Shown here one piece after another: positions 3,098 through 35,665 of a DNA stretch of 39,619 bases. The notes under the pieces are model-generated. The model did not search any database, was not told the DNA's origin, and was given only the letters and a program-made list of their open reading frames with translations. This stretch comes from an uncultured Pelagibacteraceae bacterium. Its GTDB lineage: Bacteria; Pseudomonadota; Alphaproteobacteria; Pelagibacterales; Pelagibacteraceae. The stretch lies in the NCBI GenBank assembly GCA_902519455.1, contig CABYJT010000004.1:1-39619 (forward strand), given 5' to 3'. A program made the translations under genes and the position numbers. Each line of letters opens with the position of its first letter. Within the stretch, counting starts at the first letter, position 1.

Positions 3098-3099
3098 TT

Positions 3100-3993
3100 T
3101 TAAACAGGTGCTTTTGTTGATCTATCTATACCTAAGGCTTTAGCAAAAGCATCAGCTGTCAAATTGATGCCAATTATTAAGCTGCTTAAACCAACAATTG
3201 GAGCTATCACTGACCAATAAGCAAATGACATTAGACCTCTTGCGTTTGATATCATCAATCCCCAATCTGGAGTTGGAGGACTAACACCAAAACCTAGGAA
3301 CGACAAAGAACTAAAGCCAAGTAGCATCCATGACCATCTCATTGCACCTTCCACTAAAATTGCATCTCTTACATTTGGAATTATCTCATTCCATATTATT
3401 GAAAAATTACTATGCCCTCTTGCTCTGGCGGATACAATAAAGTCTTTTGCAATAACATCATGGGTTGCAGCTCTTGCTACTCTTACAATTCCTTTACCAT
3501 AAAAGAAACCTAAAGCAGGTATCAATACTTCAGTTGATGTACCTAACAAAGATACAATTAACAACATTGCTAATATCCACGGTATAGATAAAAATGCATC
3601 AACAATTCTCATCACTATATCGTCAGTTTTTCCACCAACCAGTCCACAAAAAATTCCTAATAGACCACCCCAAAGTAGTGCTATCAAAGATCCAAAGAAA
3701 GTAATTGTTAATGCTGTTCTTCCACCTAAAATTGTTCTAGTAAAAACATCTCTTCCAAGATCATCAGTTCCAAACCAATACTCAGCAGAAGGAGCCTGTA
3801 GCATTAAAGTTGGGTTAATTGCTTTAAAATCATATGGCGCAATATAAGGGCTAATAAATGCAAGAACTACATGGAAAATTAATATACTTAAACCAATGAA
3901 ACCCGATGGTCTTGAGGCCATTGTAATTATTATTTCAGCGACTTTTGCGAAATTACTTTTCTTTTCTTCCTGATAAATATTATCCAATTTCAT
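3100..3993 (-). CDS. Dipeptide/oligopeptide ABC transporter permease (DppC type)
   Basis: 297 aa with FGTDDLGRDVFTRTILGGRTAL and an EAA-like loop (ARARGHSNFSIIWNEIIPN); located within a Dpp-like operon. Confidence 0.94.
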   Translation of the reverse strand: MKLDNIYQEEKKSNFAKVAEIIITMASRPSGFIGLSILIFHVVLAFISPYIAPYDFKAINPTLMLQAPSAEYWFGTDDLGRDVFTRTILGGRTALTITFFGSLIALLWGGLLGIFCGLVGGKTDDIVMRIVDAFLSIPWILAMLLIVSLLGTSTEVLIPALGFFYGKGIVRVARAATHDVIAKDFIVSARARGHSNFSIIWNEIIPNVRDAILVEGAMRWSWMLLGFSSLSFLGFGVSPPTPDWGLMISNARGLMSFAYWSVIAPIVGLSSLIIGINLTADAFAKALGIDRSTKAPV

Positions 3994-3994
3994 A

Positions 3995-4951
3995 TTATTT
4001 TCTTATCTGTAAAGTCTTTAATCTTGGATTTAGCATCAATGTCATTAGATCCGCCAATAAATTTATACTAACATATATAGATGCAAGAATTATTGCTAAT
4101 GCTTGAACTGTAGGTAAATCTCTATTTGAAATCGACTCAATAACCAATCTTCCAAGACCTGGGTAATTAAATACAACTTCGGTTACAACAACTCCTCCTA
4201 ATAACCATGCAATTGTTAAAGCTACAACATTGATAGCCGGTAATAATGCATTTGGTAATACATGTTTAAAAACCATTTTCCAATATGGAACACCTTTTAA
4301 AATTGCCATTTGAACATATTCACTTGCCATAACTTGAATGACACTTGATCTCACCATCCGTGCCATATGAGCTGTCATAATCATTGCAATAGCGATTACT
4401 GGTAAAATAATATTTGGTAATAGTTCTAAAAATGAAACATCAGTTGGAACAATTACAATTCCTGGCAACCACTCTAACCATATTGCGATTATTAAGATTA
4501 ATAAAGTAGCACTAATAAACTCTGGGATAGTCATAGCAAATATAGTTACTGTTGAAATTGCTACATCAGGCAATTTATCTCTCCAAAGGGCAGTTACTAT
4601 TCCAAGTATTAGAGCGATTGGAATGCCAATAAAAATAGCAGCTGATGCTAGAACCAATGAATTTTTAATTCGTGGCCCTAGTACCTCTTTAATTGGCATT
4701 TCTCCACTCAATGAATAACCAAAGTCTCCTTGAATAGCATTTACTGCCCAGGATACATATCTCTCATATGCAGGAACATTCAAACCTAATCTTCTATAAC
4801 AAGCTTCTAATTGCTCTCCAAATGCTTGTCTTTCAAGATATGTTGTACATGCATCACCGGGTAAAATTTCTGTTCCAACAAAAGTGATTAATGATACAAT
4901 AAATAAAGTTATTAGACCTAATAGAATTCTCTTTATAATTAAAAAAAGCAT
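3995..4951 (-). CDS. Dipeptide/oligopeptide ABC transporter permease (DppB type)
   Basis: 318 aa with N-terminal RILLGLITLFIVSLITF, a C-terminal permease core, and GVVVTEVVFNYPGLGRLVIESISNRDLPTVQ. Confidence 0.94.
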   Translation of the reverse strand: MLFLIIKRILLGLITLFIVSLITFVGTEILPGDACTTYLERQAFGEQLEACYRRLGLNVPAYERYVSWAVNAIQGDFGYSLSGEMPIKEVLGPRIKNSLVLASAAIFIGIPIALILGIVTALWRDKLPDVAISTVTIFAMTIPEFISATLLILIIAIWLEWLPGIVIVPTDVSFLELLPNIILPVIAIAMIMTAHMARMVRSSVIQVMASEYVQMAILKGVPYWKMVFKHVLPNALLPAINVVALTIAWLLGGVVVTEVVFNYPGLGRLVIESISNRDLPTVQALAIILASIYVSINLLADLMTLMLNPRLKTLQIRK

Positions 4952-4995
4952 AAGAATACTTAAATTTTAAATTATTTATTTAGAAATGAAAGAGG

Positions 4996-5025
4996 TTTTA
5001 CAGGCCTGCTTAAAGGCCTGTAAAA
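4996..5025 (-). terminator. Intercistronic hairpin between the family-5 SBP gene and dppB-type permease; possible attenuator or 3-prime stabiliser
   Basis: Perfect 11-bp inverted repeat TTTTACAGGCC (4996-5006) / GGCCTGTAAAA (5015-5025) with an 8-nt loop, 8 nt past the SBP stop codon. The U-tract on the transcribed side is weak. Confidence 0.7.
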
Positions 5026-5033
5026 CAAAATTA

Positions 5034-6521
5034 TTATTGAACGCTAACTGTGTGCCATCTTATTGAAAAATACTCAACTTCGTCGAGATTTTTCACTTTA
5101 GAAGATGTGACAACCAGTCTAGATACGTGGTACGGAATCATAGTTCCAGATTCTTCCCATAGTGTTTTCTGAGCATTGATGTATGCTGCTTTTCTTTTGC
5201 TAAATTTTAACTCTCCTCTAGCTTCAGCTAAATTTTTGTCAAAAGAAGCACTTTTATAGAAAGACTCGTTCCATTTTGCTTCACTATGATAAGCTTCATG
5301 CAAAATACTGTCTGCAGGTCTCTCATTCCAACGTGTCATTGCTACAGCCTTTTTCATCCAAGTTTCATTCCAATAACTTTTTGAAGGTGTCATTTGGATA
5401 TCTGCTCTAATGTTAGCTTTTGCAAATTGTTGTTGTAAAACCTCAGCAATAGTGGGCCATGTTGGTTCTTTTGTAGAAACGTGAATTGTCATATCAATTC
5501 CATCTGGATAACCTGCTTCAGCAAGTAATTTTTTTGCAGTTGCTGGTTGAGGTGGACAACTCTTCTTCATTCTGTATTGGTCAGAAGGTGCAACAGGAGT
5601 ATCACAAGATACTGTTGCTGCTCCAGCCATAACTAGATCAACTAATTCTTGTCTATCTACAGCTATTCTTACAGCCTTTCTTACTCTCACATCATCAAAT
5701 GGTGCAACGTCAGTTCTCATTACCATACCTCTCCAGTTTCCTGTAGGAATAACTGAAACATTAAACTTTGAGTTACCATCAAATATTTTTTTCTGATTGA
5801 ATGGAACATATCTATTCATATCTATCTGACCTGTAAGTAGAGCTTGAATTCTAGCTTGACCATCTGGGATAGCTATTACATGTACTTCAGCAAGTTTAGG
5901 AGCCCCTTCCCAATAATCTGGGTTTGCTTTAAGAATTGTTGTTCCCTCAGCATCAAATTTTTCTACTATAAAAGGTCCAGTTCCAATACCTGTTTTTCCA
6001 ATAGTATCACCTGATCCGCTAGGTATCATTCTTAATCTATAGTCAGTTAATAAAAGTGGAAAATCTGCAAATGATGTATTCAACTTCATTTTAACTGTGT
6101 GTGAGTCTACAACTTCAATATCCGTTACTGCACTCATACTTTTCTTAGCAGGCGAACCAATTTCAGGATCTTTAACTCGCATCAAAGAATATTTTACATC
6201 CTCTGCATCGAACTCAGATCCATCATGGAATTTAACACCTTTTCTTAAATTAAAAGTCCATTCTGTTGCATCAGCATTTCCTGACCAGTCTGTTGCAAGC
6301 TCAGGCGATGTAACTCCTTTAAGATCTTTTCTAACAAGACGGTTCTGTGTCATTATTACTACCTGAAACAGTCGTCCCTTAGTAATTGCGTCTAAATTTG
6401 TATCTTTTCCAAAACCAACATCATGAGATAATTTAAAAACTCCACTTGATGCATTAGCAAAAGAAAACGTTACAAATAGTGATACCAATGAAACTGATAT
6501 CAATTTAAAAATGTTTTTCAT
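5034..6521 (-). CDS. Extracellular solute-binding protein family 5 (peptide/nickel/opine type)
   Basis: 495 aa with signal peptide and SBP_bac_5 features (ATEWTFNLRKGVKFHDGSEFDAEDVKYSLMRVKD; ADIQMTPSKSYWNETWMKK). Strong SD (AGAGAGGAA) upstream. Confidence 0.94.
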   Translation of the reverse strand: MKNIFKLISVSLVSLFVTFSFANASSGVFKLSHDVGFGKDTNLDAITKGRLFQVVIMTQNRLVRKDLKGVTSPELATDWSGNADATEWTFNLRKGVKFHDGSEFDAEDVKYSLMRVKDPEIGSPAKKSMSAVTDIEVVDSHTVKMKLNTSFADFPLLLTDYRLRMIPSGSGDTIGKTGIGTGPFIVEKFDAEGTTILKANPDYWEGAPKLAEVHVIAIPDGQARIQALLTGQIDMNRYVPFNQKKIFDGNSKFNVSVIPTGNWRGMVMRTDVAPFDDVRVRKAVRIAVDRQELVDLVMAGAATVSCDTPVAPSDQYRMKKSCPPQPATAKKLLAEAGYPDGIDMTIHVSTKEPTWPTIAEVLQQQFAKANIRADIQMTPSKSYWNETWMKKAVAMTRWNERPADSILHEAYHSEAKWNESFYKSASFDKNLAEARGELKFSKRKAAYINAQKTLWEESGTMIPYHVSRLVVTSSKVKNLDEVEYFSIRWHTVSVQ

Positions 6522-6524
6522 AAT

Positions 6525-6533
6525 TTCCTCTCT
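6525..6533 (-). promoter_or_regulatory. Strong Shine-Dalgarno site for the family-5 SBP
   Basis: Minus-strand AGAGAGGAA just upstream of the ATG at 6521. Confidence 0.75.
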
Positions 6534-6637
6534 TTAAAAAAATAAAAGGTAACAATTAGCAACTTATATAGCAACAGTGAAAATGGTTCTTTTTTATTTG
6601 TTTTATTGATGTATTTTGATTATTTAAAAAAAAAATA

Positions 6638-7867
6638 ATGAAAGATTTAATCAATAAATATAGGTTTACAGTTAAGCCTGTTAGCCTTGAAAAATCTAAC
6701 TCTTTGGAGCTTGCAAGGTCAATTCAAGTTCATCCACTAACTTATCAAGAACTTCCTTATAACCCTGAGTATTCTAATTATGCTGGAAGATTAACGCTTG
6801 AAAAATTGTCAAATGTTAGCCCTGAGGAAATGTATTGGAAAGGAAGGCAAGAAATAATATTTAGACATACTGGAGAACATCCATTTGAAATATCTGGTCC
6901 AGACTCATTAAAATTATTACAAAAAATATTTCCAAGAGATGTATCAAAAATATCAAAAGGAAGGTGTTCTTACCAGTTTGCTTGTTATCATGATGGAGGA
7001 ATGATCACGGATGGAGTTCTATTAAAAATTGATGAAGATAAATATTGGTTTGCCCAAGCAGATGGAGATCTTTTTTCTTGGTATAAAGCTCACTCTAATA
7101 ATATGGATGTTGAAATAAAAGATCCTGAAGTATGGGTAAGTCAAATCCAGGGTCCTTTATCAATGAAACTGTTAGAAAATATAGCAGATAGATTTTCTGA
7201 AAATGACTGGAAATATTTTGATTGGAAAGAATTACAAATCTTAGATCAAAAAGTAATTGTAAGTCGAAGTGGTTTTACAAATGAGCTTGGTTGGGAAATT
7301 TATTTTCGACCTGAAAATGAAACTGAAAAAATAGGAGATTACATTCTTGAAGAAGGAAAAAAATTAGGTATGATTTTAGTTGCCACTCCAGGTTTTAGAT
7401 GTAGAAGAATTGAGGCAGGTCTACTGTCTGCAGGACAAGATTTTACAAAAAAAACAAATCCATTTTCAGTTGGTCTTGGGCGTTTTATAAATTTTGATAA
7501 AGAAGATTTTATTGGAAAAGAAGCTCTCATGACATCAGATAAAAAATGCAAAACATGGGGGATTAGAGTTGCAGAGGGAACTGCTATTAAAGGTGAGAGC
7601 ATTAAAATAAATGAAAAAAATATTGGTAAAATAACTTCTAGCACTTGGTCACCATATCAAATTTGTGGAGTTGGTATTGTGCACCTCGATAATAATGAAA
7701 ATGGACCAGGAGATGTTGTTGATGTTAAATGCACTGATGGAAAAGTACATAAAGGAGAAATCTGTAAATTGCCAATGTATGATGCCAAAGGAGAAATTGT
7801 CAGAGGTCTAAATAGAAATATTCCTAAAGCACCTAATCCTTGGCCCGGTATTAAAACCACAAATTAA
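6638..7867 (+). CDS. GcvT-family (aminomethyltransferase / folate-binding) protein, divergent subfamily
   Basis: 409 aa with FEISGPDSLKLLQKIFPRDVSKISKGRCSYQFACYHDGGMITDGVLLKIDEDKYW, SRSGFTNELGWEIYF and a C-terminal barrel domain (FIGKEAL...). The usual D-[VL]-S motif before the SGPDA segment is replaced by FRHTGEHPFEI. Confidence 0.85.
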   Translation: MKDLINKYRFTVKPVSLEKSNSLELARSIQVHPLTYQELPYNPEYSNYAGRLTLEKLSNVSPEEMYWKGRQEIIFRHTGEHPFEISGPDSLKLLQKIFPRDVSKISKGRCSYQFACYHDGGMITDGVLLKIDEDKYWFAQADGDLFSWYKAHSNNMDVEIKDPEVWVSQIQGPLSMKLLENIADRFSENDWKYFDWKELQILDQKVIVSRSGFTNELGWEIYFRPENETEKIGDYILEEGKKLGMILVATPGFRCRRIEAGLLSAGQDFTKKTNPFSVGLGRFINFDKEDFIGKEALMTSDKKCKTWGIRVAEGTAIKGESIKINEKNIGKITSSTWSPYQICGVGIVHLDNNENGPGDVVDVKCTDGKVHKGEICKLPMYDAKGEIVRGLNRNIPKAPNPWPGIKTTN

Positions 7868-7880
7868 AAAAATTTATTTA

Positions 7881-8573
7881 GTGAAGGGTAAAAAACAAAT
7901 AATAGCAGTTGGAGGTGGTGGTTTCACTCATGATGAAGATAGCGATTTAGATCAATTTTTTTTAGATCAAATAAGTAAAAAAAAATGTTCTGTAGGGTTT
8001 TTGCCAACTGCTAGTAATGATGACGTAAAAAAAACTGAGCTATTCTATAAAAGATTTAAAAATACTAATTTTAAAGTTTCTCATTTCAATCTTGTCTCAA
8101 ATGTTAAGGGTTTTGAAAACTGGATTTCAAATTTAGATGCTATTTATGTTGGTGGAGGAAATACTAAATTTATGCTCGACTTATGGAAAAGAAATAATTT
8201 ATTTGAAATTTTTAAAGAAGTTTATAACTCAGGAATAATTCTATCTGGTGTTAGCGCTGGTGCAGCATGCTGGTTTGATTATTTTCTTACAGACTCTGAT
8301 GGACCTGGCTTTAAACCATTAAGTGGTATTGGACTTATATCTGGGAGTTTTACCCCACATTATTCAGATGCAAAAAGAGCAGATAAATATAGACAAAGTA
8401 TAAAAAACAAAAATTTACCAAATGGTATAGCTGTTGATGATGGAGTTGCAGTACTTTTTATTGACGGAAAACCAACTGAGGTTTATTCTTCAAGAGAAAG
8501 TCATAATGCTTATTTTGTTGATCAAAATAAACAACTTAATTTAAAAGAATATATTAAAATTAGTAATGAGTGA
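7881..8573 (+). CDS. Peptidase S51 (dipeptidase E / cyanophycinase-like)
   Basis: GTG start; nucleophile elbow GVSAGAACWFD, YVGGGNTKFMLDLW, and SGSFTPHYSDAKR, all characteristic of family S51. Confidence 0.87.
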   Translation: MKGKKQIIAVGGGGFTHDEDSDLDQFFLDQISKKKCSVGFLPTASNDDVKKTELFYKRFKNTNFKVSHFNLVSNVKGFENWISNLDAIYVGGGNTKFMLDLWKRNNLFEIFKEVYNSGIILSGVSAGAACWFDYFLTDSDGPGFKPLSGIGLISGSFTPHYSDAKRADKYRQSIKNKNLPNGIAVDDGVAVLFIDGKPTEVYSSRESHNAYFVDQNKQLNLKEYIKISNE

Positions 8574-9729
8574 TAATATTTTACCTAGCCAAAAAATTTT
8601 TAGCATTAAAGATGCAAGAGAACTGTCAAGAAAACGTCTACCTAAATTAGTTTTTGATTTTATTGATGGAGCATCTGGAGATGAAAAATTAGCAGAAATA
8701 AATAGCAAAGCGTTAGATCAGATTAGACTTGAACCAAAAGTTTTAAGAAATGTTGAGAAAAGATCTCTTAAGAAAAAAGTATTAGGTTATGAATTTGATT
8801 TTCCATTTGGTTTTGCTCCAATGGGAATGACTAATTTGTCATGGCCTGGAGCAGACGCTATGTTAGCAGCTGAAAGTGCGAGGAATAATATACCTACTTG
8901 TGTTTCTATGGCTTCTACTACAACGTTAGAAAAAATGTATGAACTTTCAGAAGGTCACTCCTGGATGCAGCTATATATATTTCAGGATGAAAATTTTGTT
9001 ATGGAACTTTTAGATAGAGCTAAGAATACTGGGTACGAGGTTGCAATATTAACTGTAGATGTTCCAGTGCTTTCAAGACGAACTAGGGATGATAAAAATG
9101 GTTTCTCCTATCCTTTTAAAATTGGTCCAAAACAATTTTTTGATTTTGCAACTCACCCTATCTGGTCTATTTCTACTTTGCTAAGTGGCATTCCTAAGCC
9201 AATGAATTATGTAACATCTAAAAGTGGTGATGGTATATTTAAAAGAAAAGAAAGTAGAGGTTCTACAGATTGGGATACTTTAAAGAGAGTAAGAGATAAA
9301 TGGAAAGGTAAATTGATAATTAAGGGAGTAATGTCTCCTGATGATGCAAAACAAATAAAAGAAGCAGGGGCTGATGCAATTCAAGTTTCAAATCATGGTG
9401 GTAGACAATTAGATAGTGCTACGGCTGCAATAAATATGCTTCCACTAATAAGAAAATCAGTTGGAAGTGACTTTCCTTTAATCTTTGATAGTGGAATAAG
9501 AAGTGGCAGTGATATAGTGAGAGCTCTTGCATTTGGTGCCGATTATGCAATGATTGGTAGACCCGTGATGTATGCAATGGGAGCTGATGGAAGAAAAGGA
9601 TTAAGGAGAATTGTGGAAATAATCAAAGAAGAAGCTAGCACTACACTCGGGTTAGTAGGATTAAATGATATTAATGATGTTACTTCTAATATAGTAATAG
9701 ATAGTACTGTAAATAAGGTAAATTACTAA
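8566..9729 (+). CDS. FMN-dependent alpha-hydroxy-acid dehydrogenase (LldD / glycolate oxidase / mandelate dehydrogenase family)
   Basis: 387 aa with KGVMSPDDAKQIKEAGADAIQVSNHGGRQLDSATA (SNHGGRQLD motif), FDSGIRSGSDIVRALAFGADYAMIGRP, and WMQLYIFQD. Confidence 0.95.
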   Translation: MSDNILPSQKIFSIKDARELSRKRLPKLVFDFIDGASGDEKLAEINSKALDQIRLEPKVLRNVEKRSLKKKVLGYEFDFPFGFAPMGMTNLSWPGADAMLAAESARNNIPTCVSMASTTTLEKMYELSEGHSWMQLYIFQDENFVMELLDRAKNTGYEVAILTVDVPVLSRRTRDDKNGFSYPFKIGPKQFFDFATHPIWSISTLLSGIPKPMNYVTSKSGDGIFKRKESRGSTDWDTLKRVRDKWKGKLIIKGVMSPDDAKQIKEAGADAIQVSNHGGRQLDSATAAINMLPLIRKSVGSDFPLIFDSGIRSGSDIVRALAFGADYAMIGRPVMYAMGADGRKGLRRIVEIIKEEASTTLGLVGLNDINDVTSNIVIDSTVNKVNY

Positions 9730-9730
9730 A

Positions 9731-11473
9731 ATGAGTGAAAATAAAATTAGAGGTGGGGCGTTACTTGCAAGAGCTCTTAAAGACAAAGGAATTAGTAAAG
9801 TTTTCACACTTTCAGGAGGTTTTTGTAATCCAGCAATTGAAGGTTTTGCTGAGTGCCAAATTGAGGTTATAAACACTCCTCATGAGCAGATTGCTGGGCA
9901 TTTAGCAGATGGCAATACAAGGATTACACGTAAACCATCAGTCTGTTTAGTTGGACCTGAAGGATTTACTAATGCTGTCCCTTCAATGATGGAAGCTTGG
10001 GGCGAGAGAAGTCCCATTATTTACATTACAGGATCTAGCAGTCTTAAAAGACAAGGTTCAGGTGGTTTTAAAGAAATTGACGATGTTTCAATTGCAGCCC
10101 CTTTAACCAAATATAGTGCAAGTATTACTGATGGAAATAGAATAAGAGAATTTGTAGACAAAGCATATCATATTGCAACTAATGGGTATCCTGGCGCTGT
10201 TCATCTTAGTCTTCCTGTTGATATAATGTTTTCATCTTTTGCTGAGGAAGTTGGTTTAGAAGAAAGACCATATTCTCAAAAAGCAAAACCTATAGCAAAA
10301 GCGTGGCCAGATCCAAATTCACTTTCAGAAGTTTTAGAACTTGCTTGTAATTCAAAAAAACCAGTCATCATTGGTGGACATGGTGTTTGGTGGTCACATT
10401 CAGAAAAAAATCTTGAAGCAGCTGGTAACAATTTAAATATACCAATATTTAATGTTCCGTATCATCAAAAATTATTAGGAGAGGAATCTAACGCTTACAT
10501 GGGGTTGGCTGATATACATCAATACCCTCCCTCAGAATTTGCATTACACAATTCAGATCTAGTTCTTGTTATTGGAGCGAGATTAGATAATCAATTAAAT
10601 TTTGGAAATCCACCTTTTATACCTGAATCAACAAAATTAGTTTGTGTAAATGGTTCACATGAAGAATTAGAACTTAATAGAGCTGCGGATTTAAGTTTAC
10701 TAAGTGATCCTGGTGTTTTTTTAGACACATTATCTAACTTAAAAAAAAATAATAAATGGTCTTTAGGTACAAATTGGTTTGAGGAAAATAAAAAAAAGAA
10801 GAAAGAGTGGGTTGATAAATCTTTAAAAGATTTAGAAATTGAAGCTGAAGCATCAAAAAAAAATGGAGGAAAAATTCACCCTCTACAACTTTCATTGGAT
10901 GTTCAAGATGCAATGAATGAAAATGATTGGCTTGTAATCGATGGAGGAAATACTCATTTTTGGTCAGAAATTGCTATCAACATTGCAGGTGCCAAAGGGA
11001 AAAAATTAAAAGGGATTTTGCATCCTGGAACTTTTAGTATGTTAGGTGTTGGAGTTTCATTCGCTCTATCTGCTAAAAATCATAATCCAGATTCAAATGT
11101 AGTTCTGATTAGCGGTGATGGTGCATTTTTATCAGGAGGTATGTCTATTGAAAGTGTATTTTATGAGAAAAAACCTATTACTGTTGTAATTGATAATAAC
11201 GGGGGCCTTGCTTCAATTGGTCAGCAACAAGAGAGGTTATTTAAAAGTGGAAAAAGTGTGGGAACTGATTTTCGTGATATACCATTTCACAAGATATTTG
11301 AGGGTTTTGGAGGCCATGGAGAATTAGTTAATAAAAGAGAAGAACTAGGTCCAGCGCTTAAAAGAGCTATGGAAAGTGGAAAACCCGCGTGCGTGAACGT
11401 TAAAGCAAAACCTGTATTAAGCCCAATAGTCTCTGCAGTTGCAAGTAAAAGAGAGAAATCATCAATAGAATAA
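9731..11473 (+). CDS. Thiamine-diphosphate-dependent enzyme (acetolactate synthase / benzoylformate decarboxylase-like superfamily), substrate unknown
   Basis: 580 aa with the Glu motif NTPHEQIAGHLADG, VCLVGPEGFTNAVPSMMEAWGERSPII, and TPP motif GDGAFLSGGMSIESVFYEKKPITVVIDNN. Confidence 0.92.
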   Translation: MSENKIRGGALLARALKDKGISKVFTLSGGFCNPAIEGFAECQIEVINTPHEQIAGHLADGNTRITRKPSVCLVGPEGFTNAVPSMMEAWGERSPIIYITGSSSLKRQGSGGFKEIDDVSIAAPLTKYSASITDGNRIREFVDKAYHIATNGYPGAVHLSLPVDIMFSSFAEEVGLEERPYSQKAKPIAKAWPDPNSLSEVLELACNSKKPVIIGGHGVWWSHSEKNLEAAGNNLNIPIFNVPYHQKLLGEESNAYMGLADIHQYPPSEFALHNSDLVLVIGARLDNQLNFGNPPFIPESTKLVCVNGSHEELELNRAADLSLLSDPGVFLDTLSNLKKNNKWSLGTNWFEENKKKKKEWVDKSLKDLEIEAEASKKNGGKIHPLQLSLDVQDAMNENDWLVIDGGNTHFWSEIAINIAGAKGKKLKGILHPGTFSMLGVGVSFALSAKNHNPDSNVVLISGDGAFLSGGMSIESVFYEKKPITVVIDNNGGLASIGQQQERLFKSGKSVGTDFRDIPFHKIFEGFGGHGELVNKREELGPALKRAMESGKPACVNVKAKPVLSPIVSAVASKREKSSIE

Positions 11474-11475
11474 TC

Positions 11476-11811
11476 GTGGCAACTTTTTCTTCTCACTTAT
11501 TGGATGCAACAAATGGCTCACACGCAGCAAATGTTGATGTAATTATTTATCAAATTAATGAAAATGGAAAAAAGAAAGTTTTCTGCGAAACTAAATCTGA
11601 TGAAGGTGGACGAATACTCCAAGAATTTGAATTAAGTAAAGACGACTGCAAGTGTGAGTATGAAATGGTTTGTAAAACTGGCAATTATTTTTCAGAAAAA
11701 AAAATAGTTTCAGAAATTAACATTAAATTTCAAATGGAAGATCAAAATAAAAAATATCATATTCCAATAATAATTTCTAAAAATAGCTACACAGTGTGGT
11801 GGTCTAAATAA
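11476..11811 (+). CDS. HIUase/transthyretin-family protein with a divergent C-terminus
   Basis: 111 aa, GTG start. FSSHLLDATNGSHAANVDVIIYQ resembles the HIUase N-terminus (TxHVLDxxxGxPA), with ...SDEGGRILQEF and YHIPIIISKNSYTVWWSK. The C-terminal YRGS tetrapeptide expected in HIUase is missing. Confidence 0.82.
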   Translation: MATFSSHLLDATNGSHAANVDVIIYQINENGKKKVFCETKSDEGGRILQEFELSKDDCKCEYEMVCKTGNYFSEKKIVSEINIKFQMEDQNKKYHIPIIISKNSYTVWWSK

Positions 11812-11812
11812 A

Positions 11813-12979
11813 ATGAGTAAAGAAAATTTAATTACACAAAAAAATATAAAATTAAATATGTCTAGGCGTATAAGACGAACTCCATTTACAAATAAAGTAG
11901 AGGAATGTGGAGTATCTGATTTTACTGTTGTTAATCACATGCTACTACCAAAAGGTTTTAAAAATACTGTAGAAGAAGACTACTGGCATTTAAGAGAACA
12001 GGTTCAAGTGTGGGATGTATCTTGCCAGAGACAAGTACAAATTACAGGGCCTGATGCTGAAAAATTGGTCCAAAAAATGACACCACGATCCATAAAAAAA
12101 ATGGAGACTGGTAAATGTTTTTATATTCCAATAATTGACGATACAGCTGGGATGATTAATGATCCAGTTTTATTAAAACTAGACGATGATATGTTTTGGA
12201 TTTCTATTGCAGACTCTGATATATTACTTTGGGCAAAAGGAATTGCTTTAGGATCAAAATTAAATGTAGAAATTATCGAACCAGATGTATATCCACTAGC
12301 TATTCAAGGTCCAAAATCTGAGGATCTACTAATTTCAATTTTTGGTGATGATATAAAAAAGTTAAAATTTTTTAATTTTAAAGTGTTTGATTTTTTTGGA
12401 ACTAAACAAATTATTGCAAGATCTGGTTACAGTAAACAAGATGGTTTTGAAATATATTTTAAAGGATTTGAAACACATTTTAATGAGATAGAACTCGGAG
12501 AAAAACTTTGGGAAACTATATGGGAGAATGGAAAAAAATTTAATATTTCTCCAGGATGTCCAAATTTAATTGATAGAATTGAGGCTGGGTTAATGTCTTA
12601 TGGAAATGACTTTACAAGAGAAAATAATCCACTTGAGTGTAATCTTGAAAAATACTGCAAACAAGAGGATGATCATGATTTTATAGGCAAAAAGGCTTTA
12701 AGAAAGATCCAATCTGATGGAATTGTACAAAGAATGAGAGGAATTTTGTTTGATGGAGATCCGTGTAAGCCAACCGGTGTGCCTTTACCAGTATACTCAA
12801 AAGATAATGTAAAAATTGGGCAAATTGCATCTGGAATATATTCTCCAGGATTTCAAAAGAATATAGGCCTTTCTATGATTTTAAAAGATTATTGGGAAAT
12901 TGGAAATGAGGTTTTTGTAAATACTTTCAATGGAAAAAATAGAAAAGGCATTATAACTTCTTTACCATTCCCAGATTAA
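11813..12979 (+). CDS. DmdA-like GcvT-family methyltransferase (DMSP demethylase family or close paralogue)
   Basis: 388 aa with SRRIRRTPFTNKVEECGVSDFTVVNHMLLPKGF, WDVSCQRQVQITGPDAEKLVQKMTPR, NDPVLLKLDDDMFWISIADSDILLWAKGIA, and ARSGYSKQDGFEIYF. Closely resembles the SAR11 DmdA sequence as remembered, with differences. Confidence 0.85.
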   Translation: MSKENLITQKNIKLNMSRRIRRTPFTNKVEECGVSDFTVVNHMLLPKGFKNTVEEDYWHLREQVQVWDVSCQRQVQITGPDAEKLVQKMTPRSIKKMETGKCFYIPIIDDTAGMINDPVLLKLDDDMFWISIADSDILLWAKGIALGSKLNVEIIEPDVYPLAIQGPKSEDLLISIFGDDIKKLKFFNFKVFDFFGTKQIIARSGYSKQDGFEIYFKGFETHFNEIELGEKLWETIWENGKKFNISPGCPNLIDRIEAGLMSYGNDFTRENNPLECNLEKYCKQEDDHDFIGKKALRKIQSDGIVQRMRGILFDGDPCKPTGVPLPVYSKDNVKIGQIASGIYSPGFQKNIGLSMILKDYWEIGNEVFVNTFNGKNRKGIITSLPFPD

Positions 12980-12995
12980 CCTTATATTTATTGAA

Positions 12996-14120
12996 ATGTT
13001 TAAACCTGTAATTGCTGGCTTCTCAAGATCGCCTTTCACAATGGCGAGAAAAGGTGCTCTCGTAGATACAAAGCCAGTAAATTTACTAGCGGAAGTGATT
13101 AAAAATTTAGTTGCTAAGTCCAATGTTAAAAAAGAGGATATTGAGGATATTGTTGTTGGTTGTGCATTTCAAACTGGAGAGCAGTCATTTAATATTGGAA
13201 AGTTAACAACATTTTTAACTAATATGGATGTTAAAACTTCTGGAATGACAGTTGATAGATGGTGTGGTTCCTCAATGGAAGCTATTCATATTGCTGCAGG
13301 TAAAATTTCGTTAGGAGCAGGAAAAGTATTTATATGTGGAGGTGTGGAAAGTATGACTAGAGTTAATACAGGTTTTGATCCAATACCTTATCCAGAAAAT
13401 AAAAATGATAATCCGCACGTTTATTTTTCAATGGGAACTACTGCTGAAAATGTTGCCAAAAAATATAATATTTCAAGAAATGAACAACAGGAATTTGCAA
13501 TCTCAAGTCATCAAAAAGCACATGAAGCACAAACAAAAGGTTATTTTAAAAATGAAATTGTATCAATCGGAGATTGTGATACCGATGGAAATATTAGACC
13601 AGGCAGCACAATGGAAAAGTTGGATGGATTAAAACTCGCGTTCGATGAAAATGGTACTGTTACAGCAGCCACTTCATCACCTTTAACCGATGGTGCAGCT
13701 GCAACATTAATTTGTGAAGAAAGTTATGCAAAAGAAAATAATTTAAATATTTTGGGAAGAATTGTATCTACTGCAGTACAAGGGTGTGACCCTGACTATA
13801 TGGGATTAGGTCCAATTGGAGCATCAAAAAAAGCTTTGGAAAGAGCTAAATTGACAGCAGATAAAATTGATATTGTTGAATTGAATGAGGCTTTTGCGTC
13901 GCAATCCTTAGCATGTATTAAAGATTTAGGTATTGATAAAGATAAAGTTAATTTAGATGGCGGAGCACTTGCCCTTGGACATCCTCTTGGAGCAACAGGC
14001 GCAAGAATTACGGGCAAAGCTGCTGAATTACTAAAAAGAGAAAATAAAAAATATGCACTTTCAACTCAGTGTATTGGTTTAGGTATGGGAATTGCTACAG
14101 TGATTGAGTCTGTAAACTAA
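12996..14120 (+). CDS. Thiolase (acetyl-CoA acetyltransferase family)
   Basis: 374 aa with MTVDRWCGSSMEAIHIAAG (active Cys), VELNEAFASQ, GGALALGHPLGATGARI, and CIGLGMGIA. Confidence 0.95.
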   Translation: MFKPVIAGFSRSPFTMARKGALVDTKPVNLLAEVIKNLVAKSNVKKEDIEDIVVGCAFQTGEQSFNIGKLTTFLTNMDVKTSGMTVDRWCGSSMEAIHIAAGKISLGAGKVFICGGVESMTRVNTGFDPIPYPENKNDNPHVYFSMGTTAENVAKKYNISRNEQQEFAISSHQKAHEAQTKGYFKNEIVSIGDCDTDGNIRPGSTMEKLDGLKLAFDENGTVTAATSSPLTDGAAATLICEESYAKENNLNILGRIVSTAVQGCDPDYMGLGPIGASKKALERAKLTADKIDIVELNEAFASQSLACIKDLGIDKDKVNLDGGALALGHPLGATGARITGKAAELLKRENKKYALSTQCIGLGMGIATVIESVN

Positions 14121-14121
14121 T

Positions 14122-14976
14122 TTATCTATTTATTCCTCTTAATCTCTCAGATCTTCTTCTCAAAAGTTCAGCAGTTAGTAAAATTAATACTGATAAAACT
14201 ATTAAGCAAGTTGCTACAGCTAAAATTGTAGGACTAAGCTGCTCTCTAAGACCTGTCCACATTTGAATTGGAATTGTTGTATTATCTAAGCCTGCTAAGA
14301 ATAATACGACTACAACCTCATCAAATGATGTTACAAAAGCAAATAAACCACCTGAAATTACTCCTGGTAATATTAATGGTAAGGTAATTTTCATAAATGT
14401 ATTATAAGGACTGCTTCCAAGACTAGATGCTGCACGTGTTATACTATGATCAAAACCTGATAATGTTGCAGTAACTGTTATTACAACAAAGGGAGTTCCA
14501 AGAATAATGTGTGCTAATATAATACCCAAGTGTGTTGCTGCTAAACCTACTTTTGCCATAAAAAAGAATATTGCAACACCTGAAATAATCAGTGGAACTA
14601 TCATTGGAGAAATTAAAATTGCCATTATCAAACCTTTATATGGCATATGTCTACTGCTTAAACCCAATGCAGCAAGAGTACCCAAAATAATTGATCCTAA
14701 AGTTGCAAATATAGCAATTATAAAACTATTTCTTGCTGCTAATCCCCACGGATTTTTCGTTCCATAAATCATATCATTATACCACCTTAATGAAAAAGCA
14801 TCTGGATCCAGTCTCTTCATTCCATCTGTAAAGACTAAAAATTCCTCCGCATTAAATGATAATGGAAAAATTACAAATAAAGGTGCAATTAAAAAGAAAA
14901 AAACACATCCACAAACAAAAAGATAAAAATAATGCCAAATTCTATAATGTGGTTCTGTATATTTCGGTAAAGCCAT
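14122..14976 (-). CDS. Spermidine/putrescine-type ABC transporter permease (PotC type)
   Basis: 284 aa with SRHMPYKGLIMAILISPMIVPLIISG and RAASSLGSSPYNTFMKITLPLILPGVISGGLFAFVTSFDEVVVVLFL. Confidence 0.94.
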   Translation of the reverse strand: MALPKYTEPHYRIWHYFYLFVCGCVFFFLIAPLFVIFPLSFNAEEFLVFTDGMKRLDPDAFSLRWYNDMIYGTKNPWGLAARNSFIIAIFATLGSIILGTLAALGLSSRHMPYKGLIMAILISPMIVPLIISGVAIFFFMAKVGLAATHLGIILAHIILGTPFVVITVTATLSGFDHSITRAASSLGSSPYNTFMKITLPLILPGVISGGLFAFVTSFDEVVVVLFLAGLDNTTIPIQMWTGLREQLSPTILAVATCLIVLSVLILLTAELLRRRSERLRGINR

Positions 14977-14978
14977 AA

Positions 14979-16232
14979 TTATCCTAGTTTAATATTATCA
15001 ACTCCTACAAGTTTGTTATAAATCCAATAGATTACAAGTACTCCTGTCAAAAGCATTAAACCCATCGCAGACGCAAAACTCCAATCTAAAGTACTCTTCA
15101 TGTGATATGCTATTTGGTTACTAATAAGTGTTCCTGAAGCTCCACCTACTAAGGCTGGGGTTATGTAATACCCAATTGCAAGGATAAATACTAATAAGCA
15201 ACCTGCCCCAATACCTGGAATTGTAAGTGGAAAATAAACTTTAAAAAAAGCAGTAGCTGGTGTTGCTCCTAAAGATTTGCCAGCTCTCATCAGACTAGGT
15301 GATATTGTTTTCATAACACTGTACAAAGGTAACACCATGAATGGTAATAATATTTGTGTCATTGCTACATAGGTACCAGTTTTATTGTACATCATTTCTG
15401 GTCTGTTATCGTCTGCAACGAGACCTATCCAAACAAAAAAGTCATTAACAATACCCTGTTGTTGTAAAAGAATCATCCAACTAGCAGTTCTTACAAGTAA
15501 AGAAGTCCAAAAAGGCAATAAGACACAAATCATTAGCAAATTACTATATTTCATGGGTAGAGTTGCCAATAAATGTGCAATTGGATAAGCCATTAAAAAA
15601 CAAAACAAAGTTACAAAAAAAGCAACCTCCACTGTTCTAATCCATAAAATTCTGTGAATTCGTCTATCCTCAGATACTTGAACAATTTTTCCATCTTCAT
15701 TTGAGTACATATCTATACCCTTAAGATATTTTGAATATGTATAAGATGGAGCTCTTCTTTTAATTGCTCTCCAATATTCAACATTTCTCCATCTTTTGTG
15801 AACTTTCATTATTTGTTCTTTGTAGTTTCCTTCCTCGAATTTCTTTTGTTTTCTGGCAAGTTTTTTTAAAACACTTTTAAAACCATTTTTTTCATAATTT
15901 AATTGTGTCTGTAATTTTCCTGCAGTTTTATTATTAACTAAAATTTTATAATCTAAATAAAATGCTTCAAAAACTTCTTCTGGTGGAAGTTCTTTACCAT
16001 CCCAGTTTTCCATTGCTTTATAGGTTTTGGGAAGCATATTTGTAACCATCTTATCATCTATGCTTCTAGAGAACATGTCTCCAATTGGAATCATGTATGT
16101 GATAATTAAAAATAATAATAATGGTGCAACTAGTAAAAAAGCTTTAATTTTATTTTTCTTTTCTGACTGTTTTAGACTTTCCTCTAGGGGAATTCCATCT
16201 GTTGTTAAAATTTTTCCTGTTTCTGAACTCAT
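14979..16232 (-). CDS. Spermidine/putrescine-type ABC transporter permease (PotB type) with a long insertion after TM1
   Basis: 417 aa with permease core LLPFWTSLLVRTASWMILLQQQGIVND and RAGKSLGATPATAFFKVYFPLTIPGIGAGCLLVFILAIGYYITPALVGG. A charged segment of roughly 140 aa lies between TM1 and TM2. Confidence 0.93.
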   Translation of the reverse strand: MSSETGKILTTDGIPLEESLKQSEKKNKIKAFLLVAPLLLFLIITYMIPIGDMFSRSIDDKMVTNMLPKTYKAMENWDGKELPPEEVFEAFYLDYKILVNNKTAGKLQTQLNYEKNGFKSVLKKLARKQKKFEEGNYKEQIMKVHKRWRNVEYWRAIKRRAPSYTYSKYLKGIDMYSNEDGKIVQVSEDRRIHRILWIRTVEVAFFVTLFCFLMAYPIAHLLATLPMKYSNLLMICVLLPFWTSLLVRTASWMILLQQQGIVNDFFVWIGLVADDNRPEMMYNKTGTYVAMTQILLPFMVLPLYSVMKTISPSLMRAGKSLGATPATAFFKVYFPLTIPGIGAGCLLVFILAIGYYITPALVGGASGTLISNQIAYHMKSTLDWSFASAMGLMLLTGVLVIYWIYNKLVGVDNIKLG

Positions 16233-16264
16233 AAAAAAAAAGGGCGGTCAATATGACCGCCCTT
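16232..16264 (-). terminator. Intrinsic terminator between SBP and permease; its U-run abuts the permease ATG
   Basis: Perfect inverted repeat AAGGGCGGTCA (16240-16250) / TGACCGCCCTT (16254-16264), 3-nt loop. On the minus strand it is followed by a run of T that ends directly at the ATG at 16232. Confidence 0.9.
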
Positions 16265-16299
16265 ACTATAATATAAAATTAAAGTGTTTAAAACTTTAA

Positions 16300-17418
16300 T
16301 TATTTAATACTAGCTTTCATAGCTTCCCATTTTTCACCAAGCTCTGTACCATTATCAGCCCAGTACTCAGCGTCTACTAAGAAGTATCTTTTAAGGTTAG
16401 CTGGTGCTGTTGGCATATGTGGAACCATATTAGTTTTTCCATCTTTATACCAAGGCTCTCCTGCTTGCATAACTGCAATTGATGATTTTCTCCATGGAGC
16501 ATAAGCAATATATTTTGCACTTCCTGCTAACATCTCAGTACTTGTCATCATTGCTAAAGCCTTCATAGCGTCTTCTTGGTTTGGTCCACCCTTCACTAAT
16601 GCAAAATATTCGTAGTCAAGACCTTGTCCATCCCAAACTTGAACTATTGGAGCACCTTCTCCAACTGCTGCATTGAAAAATCTACCATTCCAACCAGTTG
16701 CCATTACAACTTCACCACTCATTAATAATTCTGGTGGTTGAGCTCCAGCTGACCAGAATACACATCCGCCATTTGGATCCTCACAAAGTGCTTTGATTTT
16801 ATTCATTGCTCTGTCAACATATCCTGGTTCTTCTAATTTTTTGTAGATAAATTCTCCACCTTTACCCATTTTTACGCCATCTGCTGCTAGTGCAATTTCT
16901 AAGTTAGTTAATGCACTTTTGTAAATAGCTCTTTTTCCAGGAAATCTTTTTGTGTTAAAGAAATCTTTTAAAGTCTTTGGCGTGCTTTTTAATAAATCAC
17001 TGTTGTAAGCATAGTTCCAAGAATATAAGATATTTCCTACCGCACATTTACTTGGCATATCGGTAAAGAAGTCTTCACTAGCTGGTGTACCATCTGGTGC
17101 TGGTGGGAAATCTTTGTCAAAATCAAATTCAACAAAAATCCCTTCGTCACAACCATTAATAGTATCATAAGCGAATACATCTATAATATCCCATGTGACT
17201 GCTCCTGCCTCTATTTGCGCTTTAATTTCTGAAAGTCCACCTGAATAGTCAACCCATTCGATCGGTACACCTAATGCTTTAGATGTTGGATCACCATATC
17301 CTAACTTTTGACTTTCTGTGTATGCTCCACCCCATGATGCAACAACTACTGCAAAAGCGGATGTAGATACAGAAACTGCAAATGTTAAAGCAAGTAATAA
17401 TTTACTTAATTTTCTCAT
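16300..17418 (-). CDS. Spermidine/putrescine-type ABC transporter substrate-binding protein
   Basis: 372 aa with signal peptide MRKLSKLLLALTFAVSVSTSAFA and a PotD-like core (VVASWGGAYTESQKLGYGDPTSKALGVPIEWVDYSGGLSEIKAQIEAGAVTWDIIDV). Confidence 0.93.
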   Translation of the reverse strand: MRKLSKLLLALTFAVSVSTSAFAVVVASWGGAYTESQKLGYGDPTSKALGVPIEWVDYSGGLSEIKAQIEAGAVTWDIIDVFAYDTINGCDEGIFVEFDFDKDFPPAPDGTPASEDFFTDMPSKCAVGNILYSWNYAYNSDLLKSTPKTLKDFFNTKRFPGKRAIYKSALTNLEIALAADGVKMGKGGEFIYKKLEEPGYVDRAMNKIKALCEDPNGGCVFWSAGAQPPELLMSGEVVMATGWNGRFFNAAVGEGAPIVQVWDGQGLDYEYFALVKGGPNQEDAMKALAMMTSTEMLAGSAKYIAYAPWRKSSIAVMQAGEPWYKDGKTNMVPHMPTAPANLKRYFLVDAEYWADNGTELGEKWEAMKASIK

Positions 17419-17421
17419 TTA

Positions 17422-17427
17422 TCCTCC
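17422..17427 (-). promoter_or_regulatory. Strong Shine-Dalgarno site (GGAGGA) for the PotD-like SBP
   Basis: Minus-strand GGAGGATAAATG immediately upstream of the start at 17418. Confidence 0.8.
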
Positions 17428-17516
17428 GTTTAAACGTTTTTTTATAAAAAAAGAAGTACAGCAACATAGAATATAAGAGTCAACAGGTGATTTTGGCGAA
17501 AATGTAGTAATTTAGC

Positions 17517-18602
17517 TTATTTTAGGTCTAAAGCTCGAGCATCATGACTGTTCCAGCCGATATTAATTTCATTGCCAAGTTTTATATCTAAGTTTTGAGA
17601 ACTGTTTGGAACTTTCAATATAAATTCTGAATTGCCAAGTAAATTTAATCTAACTCTAGTGTGATCCCCATGATAAATGACCTCTTCGATTTTTCCTTTT
17701 TGATTGTTATCCATTTTATCTTTAGGATTAATTAATGCTCTCTCAGGTCTAATTGATACAGTAGTTTTTTCACCAACAGATTTTACTGAAATCGGATTAG
17801 CAATTATTTCACCCTTTTCTAATTTCACTCTACATGTTCCACTTGAAATTTCAGAAACCTCTCCACCGAAGGTATTATTTTCTCCAATAAATTCTGCAAC
17901 AAAGGAATTCACAGGTTCTTCATATAACTTATCAGGACTTGATAGTTGTTGAACTTTACCATCATTAAATACCGCGATTCTGTTTGACATAGTTAAAGCT
18001 TCGCCTTGATCATGAGTTACATAAACTACTGTTACACCAATACTTTCATGAATGTGTTTAATTTCGTACTGCATACTTTCTCTTAAATTTTTATCTAAGG
18101 CACCTAAAGGCTCATCCATTAATACAACAGATGGATCGAAAACTAATGCTCTTGCAACTGCTACTCTTTGTTGTTGACCTCCTGACAGCTGACCTGGCAT
18201 TCTGTTTGCAAATCCACCGAGTGAAACCATTGATAAAGCTTTATCTACTTTTTTTTCTATATCCACTTGAGACATTTTTCTTACTTTTAATGGAAATGCT
18301 AAATTTTCAAAAACTGTCATATGAGGAAACAGAGCATAATTCTGAAAAACCATTCCAATACCTCTTTTGTGAGGAGGGATATTTGAAATTGGATTTTTAT
18401 CTAAATAAATCTCTCCATTAGTTGGAGTTTCAAAACCTGCTAACATCATTAAGCATGTAGTTTTTCCTGAACCAGAGGGTCCGAGCATTGTTACGAATTC
18501 ACCTTCTTTGATATCTAAATTTAAATCTTTAACTACTAATACTTTTCCATCGTAGCTTTTGTCGACTTTATCAAATTTTACGAAATCTTCTTTTTTTGAC
18601 AT
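17517..18602 (-). CDS. Spermidine/putrescine-type ABC transporter ATP-binding protein (PotA type)
   Basis: 361 aa with GPSGSGKTTCLMMLAGFETPTNGEIYLD, LSGGQQQRVAVARAL, MDEPLGALDKNLRESMQ, and a C-terminal TOBE-like domain. Confidence 0.95.
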   Translation of the reverse strand: MSKKEDFVKFDKVDKSYDGKVLVVKDLNLDIKEGEFVTMLGPSGSGKTTCLMMLAGFETPTNGEIYLDKNPISNIPPHKRGIGMVFQNYALFPHMTVFENLAFPLKVRKMSQVDIEKKVDKALSMVSLGGFANRMPGQLSGGQQQRVAVARALVFDPSVVLMDEPLGALDKNLRESMQYEIKHIHESIGVTVVYVTHDQGEALTMSNRIAVFNDGKVQQLSSPDKLYEEPVNSFVAEFIGENNTFGGEVSEISSGTCRVKLEKGEIIANPISVKSVGEKTTVSIRPERALINPKDKMDNNQKGKIEEVIYHGDHTRVRLNLLGNSEFILKVPNSSQNLDIKLGNEINIGWNSHDARALDLK

Positions 18603-18647: not shown

Positions 18648-19817
18648 TTAGCTCTTAATATGTAACTCTTTTGAAAAATTACAAAATAGTTCACACCCTT
18701 TATCTGTGACTCTTATAGCTTCAGATGCTTCAACTCCCCAGTCACCAAATTGCATTACAGCTATCATATGAAAACACGCATTCGGTACTAGTTCAGTCAT
18801 TTCTCCTTTATATATGTTAAGAGTATGCTCGCCCCAATCTGGTGGGTAACCTATTCCAATTGAATAACCAGTTCTTGATTTTTTCTCTATTCCATATTTA
18901 TCTAAAATACCCCAAAAAGCTTGAGCTACATCATTTGCAGTATTCCCAGGTTTTGTAGCATCTATTCCAGCTTGTAAAGCCTCGATAGTCTTGTTCATTG
19001 TGTCTATTTTTAATTGATCAGGTTTTCCAAGTAAGACTGTTCTAGCCATTGGCGCATGATATCTTTTATAAACTCCAGACAACTCAACAATAGTCGCCTC
19101 ACCTTCAACAAACTTATCTTGAGTTGCTGTTAAATGAGATGCGGATGTTCCTTTTCCTGTTGGTAAGAGTGTAGCGATACTAGAATATTCTCCACCAAAC
19201 TCTGGTGTCCCATAAAATAAAGTTTTTTGTATCTCTCCAACTGCATCGCATTGTCTGACACCCGGTTTAATTACTTCCATTGCAGTCTTCATTCCTTTTT
19301 CTGAAATTAGTGCGGCAGTTTTCATATAATTAATTTCTGCATCAGATTTTGCAAATCTTGCCCAGTTAACTAATCTCTCTGAGTCTTTTATTTTTGCATT
19401 AGGTAAACCTTGTTTTATCTTTTCATAACAAAAAGCAGTGAAGTAATGGGTATCCATCTCAACTCCAATTGAAAGCTTATCCCAATTTCTATCTTTAATG
19501 ATCTGTACTAAATAATCGTAAGGGTGTTTTGGCCATGTATGAATATAATTTTCATCATACACAATTATATTTTCATCTTTGAGATATGTTTTTATGTACG
19601 CACCTCCTGAATCTTGAGCTCTTACAAAACATAAAGGTTCATCAGCGTTAACATGAACAATTGCACACTGAGCATAATAAAAAGACCATGCATCATAACC
19701 AGTTAAATAATTCATATTATTTGTGTCGTGAGAAATTAATAGTTCAATACCTTTATCCTGCATCATCGACTGAACTTTTTTTAATCTTTCTTTATATTCG
19801 TCTTTAGTAAATGACAT
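18648..19817 (-). CDS. M24-family hydrolase resembling ectoine hydrolase (EutD/DoeA)
   Basis: 389 aa with GYDAWSFYYAQCAIVHVNADEPLCFVRAQDSGGAYIKTYL, RHPYDYL-like HPYDYLVQ, TIVELSGVYKRYHAPMARTVLLG, and VEASEAIRVTDKG. The canonical M24 Asp ligands are substituted. It neighbours an EutA-like gene. Confidence 0.82.
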   Translation of the reverse strand: MSFTKDEYKERLKKVQSMMQDKGIELLISHDTNNMNYLTGYDAWSFYYAQCAIVHVNADEPLCFVRAQDSGGAYIKTYLKDENIIVYDENYIHTWPKHPYDYLVQIIKDRNWDKLSIGVEMDTHYFTAFCYEKIKQGLPNAKIKDSERLVNWARFAKSDAEINYMKTAALISEKGMKTAMEVIKPGVRQCDAVGEIQKTLFYGTPEFGGEYSSIATLLPTGKGTSASHLTATQDKFVEGEATIVELSGVYKRYHAPMARTVLLGKPDQLKIDTMNKTIEALQAGIDATKPGNTANDVAQAFWGILDKYGIEKKSRTGYSIGIGYPPDWGEHTLNIYKGEMTELVPNACFHMIAVMQFGDWGVEASEAIRVTDKGCELFCNFSKELHIKS

Positions 19818-33376: not shown

Positions 33377-33457
33377 ATTTTGTTATTTTAATAACATAAA
33401 AATAGACAATATTTTCCTTTAAAAGTAAAATTATTTATTTTAAAATTTTAAATAATT

Positions 33458-35575: not shown

Positions 35576-35580
35576 AATCC

Positions 35581-35600
35581 AGAAAAAGTTACATTTTTCT
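35581..35600 (+). terminator. Small AT-rich hairpin between proW and proX (weak)
   Basis: AGAAAAA (35581-35587) / TTTTTCT (35594-35600), 6-nt loop, just after the proW stop. Confidence 0.35.
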
Positions 35601-35654
35601 CAGTTTACAAACTACTAGTTTTTGTTTTAAAATGTACCTTTAATTAATTAAATG

Positions 35655-35660
35655 AGAGGA
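35655..35660 (+). promoter_or_regulatory. Shine-Dalgarno site (AGAGGA) for the ProX-like SBP
   Basis: GAGAGGAAATAAATG upstream of the ATG at 35666. Confidence 0.7.
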
Positions 35661-35665
35661 AATAA

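Follow-up and report, generated by a model that had tools for sequence, protein, structure and literature searches.

We analyzed a 39,619-nucleotide contig from an uncultured Pelagibacteraceae bacterium (CABYJT010000004.1, here called the window), whose host is a SAR11 cell, and find that a seven-gene operon on its + strand (6638-14120) is built around a deeply conserved unit of four genes. In order, these encode a flavin mononucleotide (FMN)-dependent 2-hydroxyacid dehydrogenase (FMNdh), a thiamine pyrophosphate (TPP)-dependent lyase or decarboxylase, a hydrolase paralog of the HIUase/transthyretin fold (HIU) and a DmdA-like methyltransferase; the seven-gene arrangement is the SAR11 form of this unit. 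The reading we favor, with a probability of roughly 40%, is that the operon degrades a single methyl-onium metabolite carrying an alpha-hydroxy acid, which would reach the cell conjugated as an amide or a short peptide and would more likely be a quaternary ammonium than a sulfonium compound.

A TPP-protein search across 385 genomes of the class revealed five distant genomes with orthologs that are 68-79% identical, and a sample of 399 genomes of the phylum yielded one further ortholog besides the window itself. Across four other alphaproteobacterial families the orthologs are 61-80% identical and occur in 22 of 61 genomes of a SAR116-like family (f110, 2-2.8 Mb), 43 of 120 genomes in the order of G261, all from one genus of f142 (~1.5 Mb), 12 of 249 genomes of a Rhodobacteraceae-like family (f24) and 5 of 14 genomes in the order of G466 (f82); the labels SAR116-like and Rhodobacteraceae-like are putative. 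A first-pass annotation of the window had proposed gene-neighborhood analysis as a check on its view of the operon as one co-directional catabolic unit. This view is supported, as the core order and strand recur in all five families: among loci with room for the neighbor concerned, HIU lies directly after the TPP gene at 134 of 135, DmdA downstream at 130 of 135 and FMNdh upstream at 129 of 134. With SAR11 removed the corresponding values are 67/68, 63/68 and 61/66, a fair test because these loci were picked by the TPP gene alone. Exceptions come mainly from f82, where the order asparaginase-TPP-HIU is seen at L143 and L198 (asparaginase genes at L143:11559-12629 and L198:10365-11360, ~35 bp upstream of TPP-HIU) and the other core partners are mostly missing. 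Unrelated genes might also stay together by common descent in streamlined genomes, and SAR11 genomes are indeed compact and syntenic. For the core, however, this explanation has next to no chance of being right and is refuted by an order that stays the same despite quite different flanks, genomes of up to 4.7 Mb and gene replacement at the edges. A search of a plasmid collection found no close orthologs of the TPP, S51 or HIU proteins and returned only a gcvT1 match (55%).

Within SAR11, ~70 single-cell genomes carry the whole arrangement. Among public genome contigs, close matches to gcvT1, the first gene of the operon, come from single-cell genomes of uncultured Pelagibacteraceae; an ortholog of at least 66% identity is present in 13 of the 61 genomes of the window's genus, and three more hold the 3' part of the operon alone, on contigs that start inside it. 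The TPP gene is found at 68 of 80 loci with a close gcvT1 match, and all 68 also have gcvT1, the S51 gene, FMNdh and the importer gene dppA, with HIU and DmdA downstream wherever there is room (67/67). Gene order is retained even where the identity of the S51 and HIU proteins falls to ~50-60%. The thiolase that ends the operon, which the first-pass annotation had counted as a pathway member, is present at 65 of the 68 loci and does not adjoin the core in other families; it lies outside the conserved core, and both it and gcvT1 are lineage-specific. Apparent frameshifts or stops in three single-cell genomes (FMNdh of L032, DmdA of L092, gcvT1 of L035) are probably assembly errors.

All seven + strand open reading frames (ORFs) lie where they had first been placed, separated, 5' to 3', by 13 bp, an 8-bp overlap, 1, 2, 1 and 16 bp, and coordinates and Pfam matches also agree with a divergent importer at 1070-6521. 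The Pfam calls for all seven proteins exceed gathering scores. The core comprises FMNdh (8566-9729; LldD/mandelate-dehydrogenase-like, PF01070 FMN_dh 397 bits), the TPP enzyme (9731-11473; three TPP domains), HIU (11476-11811; GTG start, PF00576 Transthyretin) and the DmdA-like gene (11813-12979; GCV_T 145 bits). It is preceded by gcvT1, which encodes a GcvT/DmdA-superfamily methyltransferase (6638-7867; PF01571/PF08669, GCV_T 138.9 bits), and by an S51 peptidase/amidohydrolase gene (7881-8573; GTG start, PF03575 Peptidase_S51 134 bits), and followed by the SAR11-specific thiolase (12996-14120; acetyl-CoA C-acyltransferase subfamily, Thiolase_N/C 209/152 bits, TIGR01930 419 bits). Among specific NCBIfam models, the only equivalog cut-off exceeded is that of DmdA, by the DmdA-like protein, and the thiolase exceeds a subfamily cut-off; HIU, S51, FMNdh, the TPP enzyme and gcvT1 score under every specific model, so annotation alone leaves their exact functions unnamed.

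The first two core enzymes suggest that a 2-hydroxyacid is oxidized and then decarboxylated or cleaved at a C-C bond in a TPP-dependent step. FMNdh has the fold of its family with conserved His/Arg/Lys active-site motifs (VS.HGgRQ and KG), and its curated scores fall short for LldD (236 vs 550) and PRK11197 (280 vs 376). Of the core proteins the TPP enzyme is the most conserved, and 30 aligned sequences show long stretches without any change. It carries a TPP motif (here GDGAF...NN) and a catalytic Glu (here in PHEQ), features shared with 2-hydroxyacyl-CoA lyases (HACL) and oxalyl-CoA decarboxylases, its nearest solved structures. It scores only 242 bits against the 600 required for HACL and 279 against 587 for acetolactate synthase (ALS, PRK05858), and unlike HACL it has invariant motifs of its own, including DNNGGL and a C-terminal SIE; it is a subfamily of its own. 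The mandelate-type pairing suggested earlier is apt in that FMN mandelate dehydrogenase and benzoylformate decarboxylase represent the same two enzyme classes in tandem. It holds as an analogy only, since the best matches of the TPP enzyme are not benzoylformate decarboxylases and HIU and DmdA have no place in the mandelate pathway.

HIU-type enzymes cleave an amide adjoining a hydroxyl-bearing carbon. The operon HIU has the transthyretin/HIUase fold (72.4 bits vs 25.3 for PF00576) and, like UraH, the catalytic-type His/Arg/His, features expected if it acted as in urate catabolism in the breakdown of a (methylated) purine or hydantoin; one locus (L142) also has a ureidoglycolate-dehydrogenase-family gene, which scores below its cut-off. 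This alternative is nevertheless very improbable. HIU reaches 73 bits on the UraH equivalog model TIGR02962, for which the cut-off is 87.45, and 15 operon copies score 47-72 (47-73 overall), whereas 10 of the 15 genomes that gave any match also hold a separate UraH gene above the cut-off; no second UraH was found in five SAR11 genomes, and in the window's genome, which is ~53% complete, only the operon copy was found. Three aligned UraH proteins end in TYRGS, a C-terminus lost from all operon copies (which have a W/x-x-S-x type end), and the aligned operon copies share an additional, invariant His within a GTH/GSH-type motif. The neighbors of HIU are core genes in all families, with neither urate oxidase nor OHCU decarboxylase recognized nearby. 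Judged by its curated score and C-terminal signature, HIU is not a purine HIUase, contrary to the role first given to it. Braakman et al. (PMC11698098) reported a second HIUase homolog outside the purine operon in SAR11 and SAR116, set it apart from purine use and judged its function to be different; our operon is likely the location of this homolog, the two being presumably the same gene.

The DmdA-like protein bears on the strongest rival to the reading we favor. Here the operon would be a side branch of dimethylsulfoniopropionate (DMSP) metabolism, in which FMN-dependent oxidation and TPP-dependent decarboxylation convert 4-dimethylsulfonio-2-hydroxybutyrate (DMSHB) or S-methylmethionine to DMSP and DmdA is a true DMSP demethylase. 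Consistent with this, the protein shares the fold and folate-binding superfamily of P. ubique DmdA (PDB 3TFH) and surpasses the curated DMSP demethylase cut-off (NF009133, 529 vs 410 bits; copies at L140 and L197 reach 630 and 565, true SAR11 DmdA 589), and 91 alignment positions are fixed in both groups. L228 and L236 carry genes for acyl-CoA dehydrogenase and/or enoyl-CoA hydratase in the vicinity of the core, which would fit such a branch, as would PanE and Ldh2 types, which interconvert 2-oxo and 2-hydroxy acids. The Tyr found in place of Trp197 of 3TFH is likewise compatible with it, since canonical Roseobacter DmdA encoded beside acuI shares this residue; Trp197 was accordingly rejected as a diagnostic of DMSP binding. 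On the other hand, the operon proteins are only ~47% identical to P. ubique DmdA, and 45 of them group in a clade to themselves (support 0.93; support for how canonical DmdA proteins group with one another is low, 0.10). In three genomes (G955, G1050 and G1164; loci L260-L262) a canonical dmdA lies beside an AcuI-like ORF (identified by eye), apart from the operon copy. The separate clade and the coexisting canonical dmdA-acuI therefore identify the operon DmdA-like protein as a separate paralog. No acuI was recognized beside operon copies and no dmdB within the operon, and the context expected of a DMSP gene (acuI, dmdBCD) was not found there; moreover, a DMSP branch would leave HIU, S51, asparaginase and the peptide importer without a step. 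We regard it as unlikely. SAR11 Ia is known to have four aminomethyltransferases, two of them without a known substrate (PMC3160333).

At the edges of the core, genes are exchanged between families. GcvT/DmdA and MttB enzymes transfer methyl groups. The gcvT1 protein scores 117 bits on the model for the glycine cleavage T-protein GcvT (TIGR00528, cut-off 235.85) and also lies below the DmdA cut-off. The S51 protein has the fold and intact nucleophile Ser and His motifs, with GxSAG and PH conserved across families, and falls below the curated scores of PepE (38 vs 156) and cyanophycinase (35 vs 126.6). Neighboring genes were called after codon-usage filtering; without this filter, ORF clusters in high-GC genomes consisted largely of antisense ORFs. 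At 11 of 15 SAR116-like loci the surroundings of the core include MttB; none of the 15 has gcvT1 there. Five of these loci (L140, L203, L204, L208 and L243) have the Dpp importer, S51, an MttB-family gene and LysR followed by the core, and others have TRAP (tripartite ATP-independent periplasmic) transporter and Ldh2-type genes beside it. S51-MttB precedes FMNdh at L140, L203, L208 and L211 (mostly with LysR between), whereas the SAR11 order is gcvT1-S51-FMNdh; likewise, MttB-PanE-FAH at L229 has its counterpart in PanE-FAH-gcvT1 at L126. In both of these arrangements MttB and gcvT1 thus share one slot. Against the trimethylamine methyltransferase model, with a cut-off of 525 bits, the MttB-like protein reaches 329 and therefore can be assigned to the family but not to an exact function. 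In f142 a homocysteine methyltransferase-like gene stands just before gcvT1 and the core, with OsmC-like and enoyl-CoA hydratase-like genes after it. Further 2-hydroxyacid enzymes beside the core are of the Ldh2 and PanE types, as in MttB-PanE-FAH-Ldh2 at the Rhodobacteraceae-like locus L229. These associations point to methyl-onium, one-carbon and amide chemistry without naming a substrate. Given the gcvT1/MttB swap and the S51/asparaginase match, demethylation of an amide-bearing methyl-onium compound fits; the methylated, amide-containing substrate proposed in the first-pass annotation is favored by these demethylase and amidase swaps, which do not settle N- versus S-methylation.

The same neighbors could indicate a variant route of glycine betaine or carnitine demethylation, which we consider a distinctly poor prospect. 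In its favor, gcvT1, MttB and the homocysteine methyltransferase are alternative demethylase kinds, and at L232 DmdA-HIU-TPP is co-directional with genes for carnitine 3-dehydrogenase (LcdH; 647 bits, above 592), a BKACE-type protein and sarcosine oxidase alpha (1214, above 1164), with FolD and Fhs also in line before sarcosine oxidase (read by eye). A gcvT1-only locus labeled Planktomarina (L126) reads, by eye, sulfatase-PanE-FAH-gcvT1-Dpp, the sulfatase being choline-sulfatase-like. However, the betaine routes described so far operate without a 2-hydroxyacid dehydrogenase, TPP enzyme or HIU, the carnitine link is found at one locus only, and bhmT and dmgdh already serve betaine in SAR11 Ia (PMC3160333).

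The first-pass link to the divergent importer is borne out. This Dpp-type ATP-binding cassette (ABC) system on the - strand (1070-6521) comprises a fused double ATPase (1070-3097), permeases (3100-3993 and 3995-4951) and a family 5 substrate-binding protein (SBP_bac_5, 5034-6521). Beyond SAR11, where dppA adjoins the operon at all 68 loci with the TPP gene, a Dpp system with ~52-65% identical subunits lies next to the core in SAR116-like genomes and in some that are Rhodobacteraceae-like. The 116 bp between the divergent starts (6522-6637) contain two conserved islands, TAACA and CAACA, in an alignment of 10 SAR11 loci, which might conceivably be a shared operator or promoters; no Rfam riboswitch match was found in this region, and promoter and terminator scans gave no more matches than in shuffles. 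Also seen by the operon or importer in SAR11 and SAR116-like genomes is a 242-aa SBP_bac_3-type protein without an obvious signal peptide (L037:12918-13646 and L205:1235-1963, both +; also L120). The suggested link to the convergent pot-type ABC importer (permeases, SBP and ATPase, 14122-18602, -) is weaker: the association is variable, TRAP genes intervene between operon and pot in some SAR11 (L037, L120) and pot is missing in G004. Membership is uncertain for pot and for the EutD-like M24 hydrolase (18648-19817, -) and EutA-like protein (19824-20564, -), both well below the NCBIfam ectoine cut-offs. Common descent is still a candidate explanation for pot and eut; at the Rhodobacteraceae-like locus L233, genes of the pot, EutA-like and M24 types again adjoin the core as a group.

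In the pathway we favor, the Dpp system (elsewhere also TRAP) would import the substrate and S51, or asparaginase in another family, would take off an acidic amino acid. One methyl would be passed to folate by gcvT1, whose SAR116-like counterpart would be a corrinoid MttB-type enzyme, and a second by the DmdA-like protein. FMNdh would oxidize the alpha-hydroxy acid, yielding an alpha-keto acid, the TPP enzyme would remove or split off the carboxyl carbon, HIU would hydrolyze a neighboring amide or ring bond and, in SAR11, the thiolase would supply acetyl-CoA. We infer that these enzymes form one pathway and leave the order of steps unset. Somewhat more tentatively, we suggest an ocean-wide methyl-onium pathway with a TPP lyase of a new subfamily and an HIUase-derived hydrolase, with gcvT1 as a new folate-dependent onium demethylase that stands in for corrinoid MttB-type enzymes in SAR11. 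The reason we offer for a folate enzyme in this slot is that Pelagibacteraceae are without MtgC, a component of cobalamin-dependent betaine demethylation (PMC12478193). The MtgBCDE system for glycine betaine (PMC12478193) resembles the related clusters in using an MttB-superfamily enzyme for aerobic marine methyl-onium demethylation, but the SAR11 operon has a GcvT-type protein instead and FMNdh-TPP-HIU-DmdA is not part of MtgBCDE.

Several observations weigh against the methyl-onium conjugate. Neither MttB nor gcvT1 lies near the core at 4 of 15 SAR116-like and 9 of 12 Rhodobacteraceae-like loci; the first demethylation may therefore be dispensable or depend on a gene located elsewhere. The DMSP demethylase cut-off passed by the DmdA-like protein favors a sulfonium, the carnitine link is confined to a single locus, and the neighbors of gcvT1-only loci (Phaeobacter plasmids) give a different picture. 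We know of no clear precedent for a folate enzyme taking a second methyl off a tertiary amine. The chemistry proposed above goes beyond enzyme class by inference. Homarine, pantothenate, ergothioneine and guanidino compounds were also considered as substrates and rejected, as none accounts for all core enzymes.

Other features of the window and of gcvT1 loci were noted. Phaeobacter and Tritonibacter plasmids (L051/L052, 16001-31000) share a cluster of gcvT1, a GlxA-type regulator, TRAP importer, crotonase, AMP-binding enzyme and molybdopterin oxidoreductase, and the aldehyde dehydrogenase at 22451-23881 of the window is 55% identical to one encoded two genes after gcvT1 on these plasmids. The window also has two homocysteine S-methyltransferase-like genes (24318-25232 and 26864-27853, a sequence reading) and an OpuA-type betaine-family importer (32330-36676).

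The first-pass annotation knew of no described pathway with this gene set, and we found no description of it in the open-licence literature searched, which covered the cluster and the catabolism of homarine, gonyol and DMSHB. The operon gives a context to the second SAR11/SAR116 HIUase homolog set aside by Braakman et al. (PMC11698098). The TPP subfamily offers a specific marker gene for environmental surveys, and the core a defined protein set for assay. SAR11, SAR116 and roseobacters, many of whose substrates have yet to be named, take up much of the labile carbon that phytoplankton produce. That all three groups hold a strictly conserved four-enzyme core with its own importer suggests a metabolite so common that its genes pay their way even in streamlined genomes.

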